From Pseudomonadota bacterium (GTDB lineage: Bacteria > Pseudomonadota > Gammaproteobacteria > Burkholderiales > Rhodocyclaceae), in the NCBI GenBank assembly GCA_029780075.1, contig JAKOZI010000045.1:1-33366 (forward strand): a stretch of 33,366 nucleotides of DNA, written 5' to 3'. Position numbers and translations under genes: made by a program. The number at the start of each line of letters is the position of its first letter. Position 1 is the stretch's first letter. Below the pieces are notes generated by a model. The model made no database searches and was not told where the DNA came from. It saw only the letters and a program-made list of their open reading frames with translations. This document shows, in pieces, positions 9,283-21,396 of this stretch.

Positions 9283-9714
9283 TCAGTGCCCGATCTTGCG
9301 TGCTCTTTCGGAAGGGGTCACGATATCTGTCAGGCGAATGCCGAACTTGTCATTGACCACCACGACCTCACCTTGGGCGATCAGCGTGCCATTGACAAAA
9401 ACGTTCAGCGGTTCCCCGGCCAGCGCGTCCAGTTCGACGACCGAGCCGTGCGCCAGTTGCAGGAGGTTCTTGATGGTGATCCGGGTGCGCCCGAGTTCGA
9501 CCGAGATCTGGACCGGAATGTCCAGGATCATGTCGAGTTCATTGATCAGCGAACTCTTGTTGCCGGTGGTATCGAAACTCGGGAAAATATTGGCGGCTTG
9601 TGCGCTGCTGGACGGCGTGCCCTCCGCCATCGCCTGTTCGGCCATCGCCGCAGCCCAGTCATCATCGAGTCCAGCGTCGTCGCTTGCCGGCGCCGCGTCT
9701 GTTTCCTTAGCCAT
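9283..9714 (-). CDS. fliN: FliN, flagellar motor switch/C-ring protein
   Basis: This 143-residue protein starts at ATG 9714, chosen because GGGAGA lies 8 bp upstream and because the in-frame extension to 9786 would be inside fliM. The N-terminal about 60 residues are acidic and Ala-rich (AAPASDDAGLDDDWAAAMAE). The C-terminal SpoA domain is canonical, with MILDIPVQISVELGRTRITI, then KNLLQLAHGSVVELD and NDKFGIRLTDI. FliN forms the lower C ring, docks the FliH-FliI export ATPase and transmits the switch signal. The gene start overlaps the fliM stop (ATGGCTAA), indicating coupling. Confidence 0.96.
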   Translation of the reverse strand: MAKETDAAPASDDAGLDDDWAAAMAEQAMAEGTPSSSAQAANIFPSFDTTGNKSSLINELDMILDIPVQISVELGRTRITIKNLLQLAHGSVVELDALAGEPLNVFVNGTLIAQGEVVVVNDKFGIRLTDIVTPSERARKIGH

Positions 9715-20512: not shown

Positions 20513-20575
20513 TTGAGTAACTGAGCGGCGCTGCAGGCACTCGCGTCTGTGCGTCATCACGGTTTGGGGAGACGA

Positions 20576-20899
20576 ATGGAAAGCAAGGGTATTGATCAGA
20601 TGCTGAACATGCTGCGGGCCTCGTCGGCAGCGGCGGGTGGTCGCGTTGCCGAGGGGCAGAGTACACCTGCAGGTGGCGCCGACTTCGCGCAGGTACTACA
20701 GGCTTCGATTGCGCAGGTTAGTCAGACGCAGCAACAGGCGGAAACGATGGCGGCAAATTTTGCCGCCGGCAACAGCACCGAGAACCTGCACGAGGTCATG
20801 ATTGCGTTGCAGAAGGCAAACATCTCTTTTCAGGAGATGATCCAGGTGCGCAACAAACTGGTTTCCGCTTACCACGATGTGATGAACATGCAGATCTGA
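20576..20899 (+). CDS. fliE: FliE, MS-ring/rod junction protein
   Basis: The protein has 107 residues. The start is ATG 20576, with GGGGAGACGA immediately before it; the longer frame from 20549 lacks a ribosome site. The N-terminal about 45 residues are flexible. The conserved C-terminal half reads ENLHEVMIALQKANISFQEM followed by IQVRNKLVSAYHDVMNMQI, the FliE hallmark. FliE joins the MS ring to the proximal rod and is among the first exported proteins. In many species fliE heads the fliEFGHIJ operon; here it is split off, faces the other way, and sits behind the regulator pair with its own promoter candidate. Confidence 0.95.
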   Translation: MESKGIDQMLNMLRASSAAAGGRVAEGQSTPAGGADFAQVLQASIAQVSQTQQQAETMAANFAAGNSTENLHEVMIALQKANISFQEMIQVRNKLVSAYHDVMNMQI

Positions 20900-20921
20900 T
20901 GCGCGCAATGGCGTTCTGGTC

Positions 20922-20950
20922 TTGTATTCGGGCGTCCGGGCCCCCATAAT
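20922..20950 (+). promoter_or_regulatory. Sigma-70-type promoter of the tmRNA gene
   Basis: A -35-like TTGTAT (20922-20927) and a -10-like CATAAT (20945-20950) are separated by 17 bp. The -10 differs from TATAAT at one base; the -35 keeps only TTG. The predicted start is near 20957, just before the hairpin that opens the acceptor part of the permuted tmRNA. It lies only 23 bp after the fliE stop, so read-through from fliE is also possible. Confidence 0.55.
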
Positions 20951-20956
20951 GCCAAG

Positions 20957-21185
20957 CATGATCGTAATTCCGGCAGACCGGAAGCGTTCTGGACGCGGGT
21001 TCGATTCCCGCCACCTCCACCATGCGGGGGTGCACTGGTTTCGACAGGGTGACAGATGGCGCGCAGGCGATCCGAAAGGCGACGGACGTAATCCGAGCAA
21101 ATCCATAAACGCCAACGATGAGCGTTTCGCACTGGCCGCTTAAGGCCTGCTGAGGACGTAGCCGTCCAATAAACAGAATGGCTAT
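20957..21185 (+). ncRNA. ssrA: Permuted two-piece transfer-messenger RNA (tmRNA)
   Basis: The gene encodes the tRNA-like 3' half first. The T arm is GCGGG-TTCGATT-CCCGC (20995-21011), then CACCTCC (21012-21018), discriminator A and encoded CCA (21019-21022). After only three bases comes the 5' half, starting GGGGGTG (21026-21032) and TGGTTTCGACAGGG. The two halves form a 7 bp acceptor stem whose third pair is G-U, the alanine identity mark. The tag reading frame ANDERFALAA ends at TAA 21141-21143. Hairpins TTCCGG-CAGA-CCGGAA (20968-20983) and GGACG-TAGC-CGTCC (21154-21167) are also visible. The tmRNA rescues stalled ribosomes with SmpB. The order shows it must be cut into acceptor and coding pieces. 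The outer ends and the P2 helix are not resolved. Confidence 0.93.
21111..21143 (+). other. tmRNA proteolysis-tag reading frame (ANDERFALAA)
   Basis: The resume codon GCC at 21111 opens AAC GAT GAG CGT TTC GCA CTG GCC GCT and the stop TAA. With the alanine charged on the tmRNA itself, the tag added to stalled proteins would be A-ANDERFALAA. The C-terminal LAA is the standard ClpXP degradation signal. A small hairpin TCCG/CGGA (21071-21086) lies upstream where pseudoknot PK1 is expected. Confidence 0.92.
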
Positions 21186-21209
21186 CGGCGGGGGCTTCGG
21201 CCCCCGCCG
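21186..21209 (+). terminator. Terminator-like hairpin after the tmRNA
   Basis: A perfect 10 bp stem, CGGCGGGGGC/GCCCCCGCCG, closes a TTCG tetraloop. It begins 42 bases after the tag stop codon. It is very stable but is not followed by a T run, so it may act as a terminator, as a processing or end-protecting structure for the coding piece, or both. Confidence 0.65.
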
Positions 21210-21396
21210 TCGCGTTGTCAGTTTGAAGCGTTTGCCAGGGAATAATCGACCAGCGCGGAAATCATGTCACTGTAACGCGGGGCTGCACGGAACGCGGAGC
21301 AGATGCGCAACGCCCTCTGACTCATTGGCCGTAATTCTCGTCGACGTCCCGTTCAACCCGCGAACGGTTACCCGATGGACAGAGCCATTCGGGCGG

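Follow-up and report, generated by a model that had tools for sequence, protein, structure and literature searches.

The tmRNA locus

The DNA analyzed (the window) is the whole 33,366-nucleotide stretch of contig JAKOZI010000045.1 (GCA_029780075.1, positions 1–33,366, + strand), and all coordinates follow it. At 20957–21208 (+) it carries a circularly permuted tmRNA gene of the betaproteobacterial type. The gene had been predicted to lie beside a flagellar locus, and FliE is indeed encoded directly upstream, with FliF and FliH farther upstream. The flagellar region also carries a histidine kinase and a sigma-54 regulator. The features referred to below are:

20549–20899, +, fliE (PF02049, E = 3.7e-31), directly upstream of the tmRNA gene
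20922–20950, +, putative promoter read from the sequence: −35 TTGTAT (20922–20927), 17-nt spacer, −10 CATAAT (20945–20950)
20957–21022, +, acceptor piece (about 66 nt), running from the putative start of transcription through CCA; 5′ end placed from the position of the −10 element
20995–21011, +, T arm GCGGG-TTCGATT-CCCGC, from the sequence and the predicted fold
21012–21018, +, 3′ strand of the acceptor stem, CACCTCC, pairing with 21026–21032 (7 of 7 pairs)
21019–21022, +, discriminator A (21019) and encoded CCA (21020–21022), read from the sequence
21023–21025, +, joining (intervening) segment TGC, 3 nt, which the mature RNA is not expected to retain; called the joint below
21026–21032, +, 5′ strand of the acceptor stem, GGGGGTG, with which the coding piece is predicted to begin
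21026–21186, +, coding piece, from the RF01850 match; its 3′ end is approximate and deduced, and the hairpin at 21187–21208 may remain attached
21036–21049, +, TGGTTTCGACAGGG element, read from the sequence
21111–21143, +, tag frame ANDERFALAA with stop, from ARAGORN
21187–21208, +, GC hairpin GGCGGGGGC-TTCG-GCCCCCGCC, part of the RF01850 match; perhaps a terminator, without a T run

The original prediction had given the permuted order as T arm, CCA strand, three bases, 5′ acceptor strand, TGGTTTCGACAGGG and tag, with a 7-bp acceptor stem closing across the permutation point. All parts were found in their places, and all seven pairs form. The third pair, G21028-U21016, had likewise been described as G-U; it is the G3-U70 pair, known as the identity element for alanine. 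The proposed extent, 20957–21185, held at its start, which fits the position of the −10 element, but not at its end, for which about 21208 is better, RF01850 including the hairpin.

The −10 hexamer CATAAT and the first three bases (TTG) of the −35 hexamer are identical in the studied gene and all three aligned congeners, and the putative promoter region falls inside the RF01850 match. A consensus promoter scan did not report 20922–20950, whose two hexamers agree with the consensus at 3/6 and 5/6 bases and fall under the scan thresholds. The hairpin at 21187–21208 was not found by a terminator scan that requires T's.

Identity of the gene

The betaproteobacterial type, also part of the prediction, was checked with the Rfam model RF01850 (beta_tmRNA), which matched 20909–21212 from end to end (model positions 1–331) with 234.8 bits (E = 5.6e-75; gathering cut-off 84 bits). 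The newer merged model RF04321 (tmRNA_permuted) gave 160.4 bits, and ARAGORN called a tmRNA* with the tag ANDERFALAA. Given both scores and a tmRNA* call with the same tag, the gene is not a chance resemblance. The reading as a one-piece tmRNA was dropped, as the standard model RF00023 reached 35.2 bits at the locus, below its cut-off of 47. This was the best RF00023 score in the whole genome (the next was 27.5 bits), in line with the expectation that no standard ssrA would exist elsewhere.

Folding energy was discarded as evidence: shuffled sequences folded as well as the 46-nt piece in 21 of 200 cases, and as well as the 104-nt piece in 89 of 200. The identity of the gene is based on the covariance models and on conservation in the three congeners. 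For the 104-nt piece, the best predicted fold differs from the tRNA-like one. For the acceptor-arm stretch, the predicted fold matches the expected structure, and its 7-nt loop, ACCAUGC, is predicted to be fully open.

The models and the conservation show that the gene is an ssrA in the permuted betaproteobacterial form; its host is a Rhodocyclaceae-like betaproteobacterium, probably Candidatus Accumulibacter. Its product would be the two-piece tmRNA that rescues ribosomes by trans-translation. The genome is a 4.5 Mb draft of 346 contigs (99.73% complete, 6.13% contamination) in which SmpB, RNase P RNA and RNase PH are present. Permuted tmRNA genes as a kind are already known; 11,946 sequences have been catalogued (PMC11915505, with a tmRNA database of 97,179 sequences). 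The interesting part of this one is its joint.

Joint length and encoded CCA among relatives

Within the family, 395 genomes were scanned with a pattern for permuted tmRNAs that encode CCA and have a joint of 0–20 nt, which gave 45 matches in 44 genomes. The joint was 4 nt long in 42, 6 and 20 nt in one each, and 3 nt in the studied gene. Pattern and covariance-model searches together yielded 97 loci (one per genome), of which 94 were parsed and three (L024, L147 and L149) dropped; two more genomes with a pattern match, G217 and G236, whose joints are 4 nt long, lie outside the 97 loci. One genome (G210) held two mini-joint pattern matches, on contigs C5 and C40, either a duplicate gene or a mixed assembly.

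Fifty of the 94 parsed genes encode no CCA and have joints of at least 24 nt. The other 44 encode CCA, with joints of 4 nt in 39 and of 3 (the studied gene), 6, 20, 23 and 24 nt in one each. Joints of at most 6 nt are therefore found in 41 of the 94 relatives, studied gene counted, and its 3 nt are the shortest. Because 39 of the 44 CCA genes have 4 nt, so small a joint is typical of a sub-type, and the studied gene falls one base below what is typical. It belongs to the sub-type with an encoded CCA and a joint of few bases. The original prediction had seen a processing question in so short a joint. The question is a fair one, but it is not peculiar to this gene: it applies equally to these 4-nt relatives and to joints of 1 and 0 nt in phage contigs.

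All 39 joints of 4 nt read C-N-R-N, so that position −4 is always C and position −2 always a purine (A in six). By tmRNA sequence the closest relative is 96% identical, and its joint is 4 nt long. The tmRNA body is conserved with all three aligned congeners, whose joints are 4 nt; the studied gene shows a single gap there. The tag ANDERFALAA occurs in 60 of the 94 relatives (studied gene counted), variants in 33, and in one no tag was recognised.

Short and zero joints in viral contigs

In viral contigs, 20 stretches fitted a pattern for permuted tmRNAs with an encoded CCA and a joint of 0–15 nt; the joint lengths seen were 0, 1, 3, 4, 5, 9, 12 and 15 nt. The 1-nt joint occurred in one contig, L287, whose gene scores as cyano_tmRNA. 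The 0-nt joint was seen in one sequence, present in two contigs from differently numbered metagenomes and identical over 300 bases:

L273, 6914–7217, and L284, 9079–9382, zero-joint permuted tmRNA, CCA followed directly by GGGGCTG

This gene reached 111 bits with RF04321, carries the full tag ANDAVYELAA and is preceded by TTGACA and TATAAT, 15 nt apart. Directly behind it in L273, the stretch 7217–7831 matches PHROG families of ATP-dependent proteases and head maturation proteases; phage-type neighbors were present in the one zero-joint contig checked. The zero-joint tmRNA of L273 had no match in the phages collection. With a zero joint, one cut in the ACCA tetraloop would make both mature ends.

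Three further candidates for viral joints of 0–2 nt were rejected. L396 and L397 have RF00023 matches over the cut-off and no permuted match, and L398 has no tmRNA match. The 322-kb viral contig L396 carries 38 ARAGORN tRNA genes in the 13.5 kb examined, with the standard RF00023 tmRNA at 9321–9698.

Functionality and joint length

The gene might be a decayed copy, with another tmRNA serving the cell, which we consider extremely improbable: the conserved elements are intact, and apart from this gene no RF01850 or RF00023 match over the cut-off exists in the draft, which is 99.7% complete. An error in the joint itself deserves more weight. Only one draft assembly shows the 3-nt joint, so the missing fourth base may be an error, the true joint then having the usual 4 nt (e.g., CTGC), with gene and sub-type unchanged. 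A single draft in 346 contigs with the contamination given above makes this conceivable, as does the uniform 4 nt in the 19 other parsed CCA-encoding members of the same genus (19/19, the nearest relative included). The change from CCACTGC to CCATGC sits outside a homopolymer, however, and the existence of phage-contig genes with 0, 1 and 3 nt makes a joint of 3 nt plausible; we regard an error in the assembly or sequencing as unlikely.

Pairing in the joint

In all 50 no-CCA genes, 6–7 of the 7 outermost joint positions (discriminator included) pair, so that the acceptor stem continues into a hairpin. The 44 CCA genes are without a continuous helix extending the acceptor stem; in three long joints after an encoded CCA, pairing was found at 2 of the 7 outermost positions. 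Across the 53 joints of at least 20 nt (three with CCA), the contiguous extension averaged 7.9 pairs versus 0.7 in shuffles. Both leader-RCCA pairs, N(−1):73 and N(−2):74, form in 45 of 50 no-CCA genes versus 0 of 44 CCA genes, while one of the two is possible in 37 of the latter. The 41 joints of at most 6 nt were predicted open in 23 cases (including the studied gene), with two pairs in 16 and one pair in two.

The same tendency was seen in alphaproteobacterial-type loci (n = 27), with both leader pairs in 3 of 7 no-CCA versus 0 of 20 CCA genes. Of the 81 unique viral junctions among the matches listed, those that could be scored had two pairs in 12 of 52 no-CCA and 2 of 25 CCA cases, a weak link (Fisher p 0.13, rows not independent). 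Fisher values for pairing versus CCA ignore relatedness, and a tree-based pairs test, with two supported independent pairs, was not significant.

Comparison with known systems

A permuted tmRNA of Betaproteobacteria was reportedly described by Sharkady and Williams in 2004. The studied gene shares with the RF01850 family the order of parts, the acceptor stem across the permutation, TGGTTTCGACAGG, the tag, the pairing between the pieces and the terminal hairpin. It differs in the joining region, where 29 model positions are skipped against four bases of the studied gene, its 3-nt joint falling far short of the model length. As 41 of the 94 parsed relatives have joints of at most 6 nt, a model-length joint does not define the RF01850 type. 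The studied gene, with CCA and 3 nt, also differs from the 50 relatives that combine a missing CCA with a long paired joint.

Like the studied gene, the alphaproteobacterial permuted tmRNAs (RF01849 type) are permuted and encode CCA in 20 of 27 parsed loci. Their joints are longer (22–47 nt in 25 of the 27, 5 and 10 nt in the other two), and the T arm is different; in loci from other classes the T loop is without TTCGA. These loci are the best 30 of 109 genomes over the cut-off, 27 of them parsed and two of the three misses being of the beta type (the studied gene and G019); "alphaproteobacterial" is here deduced from the gene type and a position outside the class of the studied gene.

Viral-contig genes share the short joint. 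Among the matches listed, at most 9 nt separate the acceptor strands in 38 of 54 unique no-CCA junctions, and joints of 0–5 nt occur in 9 of 27 unique CCA junctions; unlike the studied gene, 54 of the 81 unique junctions among the matches listed lack CCA. A very short joint in the acceptor loop is also known from the permuted tRNA-Tyr of Thermofilum pendens (joint 1 nt, CCA encoded; PMC3978253). Permuted tRNAs of algae differ in being ligated via a circular intermediate, whereas tmRNA pieces stay separate.

Proposed maturation

Cells can split a permuted tmRNA, since Northern blots showed the tmRNA of Prochlorococcus, whose gene is permuted, as two molecules (PMC1242208). For the studied gene we lean, with restrained confidence and judging from the sequence, towards maturation of its two-piece tmRNA, and that of the CCA-encoding short-joint sub-type, by RNase P and a short 3′ trim. 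Transcription would start at about 20957, and because it starts there the acceptor piece would need no 5′ cut. The acceptor stem would fold with the closed 7-nt loop, and RNase P would recognise the T arm and the acceptor stem stacked together. A cut 5′ of G21026 would free the coding piece with UGC as leader, and UGC would then be trimmed back to CCA by a 3′ exonuclease such as RNase PH. The acceptor piece would be charged by alanyl-tRNA synthetase and stay paired to the coding piece. In the long-joint no-CCA sister sub-type, the hairpin would have to be cut (e.g., by RNase III) or unwound by RNase P, followed by CCA addition.

What is known of E. coli RNase P bears on this scheme (PMC9433436). 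The enzyme is inhibited when leader and RCCA form two pairs and so prolong the acceptor stem, C(−4) and A(−2) favor it, and GG leaders are among the slowest. The long-joint design has this two-pair pairing, and the short design is without its direct form. Cleavage before G21026 with exonucleolytic removal of UGC is proposed because the short design lacks the direct inhibitory pairing and because the 4-nt joints carry C(−4) and a purine at −2. Several observations speak against it. The slow leader G(−2)G(−1) is present in 16 of the 44 CCA genes, with the CC of CCA predicted to pair with GG in 16/16, and only 9 of 44 read AC or AT at −2, −1. In the studied gene the −4 base is the A of CCA, the usual C being lost. 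Moreover, in the closed loop the same CCA must act as both 3′ contact and leader, which counts against the RNase P reading.

The first cut could instead be made in the short loop by an endonuclease that acts on single strands, such as RNase E/G, with RNase P and exonucleases only tidying the ends. The loop of the studied gene is predicted open, as are 23 of the 41 joints of at most 6 nt, and the first 3′ cut in the one-piece tmRNA of E. coli is made by RNase III or E (PMC3968760). The closed loop may also hinder RNase P, for which many short joints are poor leaders. This explanation is strained by the 0-nt phage joints: every base there belongs to a mature piece, and an exact cut at G1 is needed unless CCA is cut and rebuilt. 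The fit of C(−4) and purine(−2) to the leader preferences of RNase P also speaks against it. In our view, initial cleavage by a loop endonuclease is rather improbable.

Extending the RNase P scheme to the family, there may be two designs, although we hold this idea as doubtful, if possible. One would combine CCA with a minimal joint serving as RNase P leader, down to the jointless phage genes; the other would lack CCA and have a long hairpin that hinders RNase P, with hairpin cutting and CCA addition; the two would replace each other in evolution. The literature searched, to which the founding papers (Keiler 2000, Gaudin 2002, Sharkady and Williams 2004) do not belong, held no account of joint length in relation to CCA encoding or of a zero joint, and one may be in print.

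Evolution of the two sub-types

The 32-row clade holding the studied gene had a support of 100/100. CCA-encoding genes also occur elsewhere on the tree, with at least four state changes, two of them forced by well-supported branches; these counts are rough, given 254 columns, long branches, an unsettled bootstrap and four too-short rows left out. Genus g19 combines both states: its CCA genes have joints of 4, 6, 20, 23 and 24 nt, its no-CCA genes joints of 24–42 nt. One gene (L120, genome G032) has a 4-nt CCA joint on a body inside the long-joint part of the tree, a possible independent shortening.

In a covariance-model survey, at least 60 of 150 genomes scored over the cut-off (10 candidates scored per genome); 39 were searched anew, with 20 over it. 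Forty genomes were searched with the permuted and RF00023 models: 16 had only a standard and 21 only a permuted tmRNA, three had neither, and none of the 40 had both over the cut-off. The three drafts without either over the cut-off in g19 (G187, G247 and G362) may have missing contigs or a divergent gene. Genera g7, g29, g31, g44 and g62 (family f1) have standard and permuted genes in different species, which suggests horizontal replacement or repeated switching; the mix in g7 depends on a single permuted genome (G183, 5% contaminated).

The regulator upstream of the studied gene has its closest matches, among 80 loci, in proteins from records labelled Accumulibacter, Propionivibrio and Rhodocyclus (72–80% identity in the best segments). 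A permuted tmRNA follows a few hundred bases downstream in six of these loci, all labelled Accumulibacter and all with a joint of 4 nt; in the remaining 74, no permuted tmRNA was parsed within the stretch examined.

Mini-joint tmRNAs pose a maturation question in bacteria, where RNase P is testable in vitro. The long-joint sister genes offer a natural control, having a related body and tag with a different joint and CCA state, and the zero-joint gene of the phage contigs is the sharpest case.
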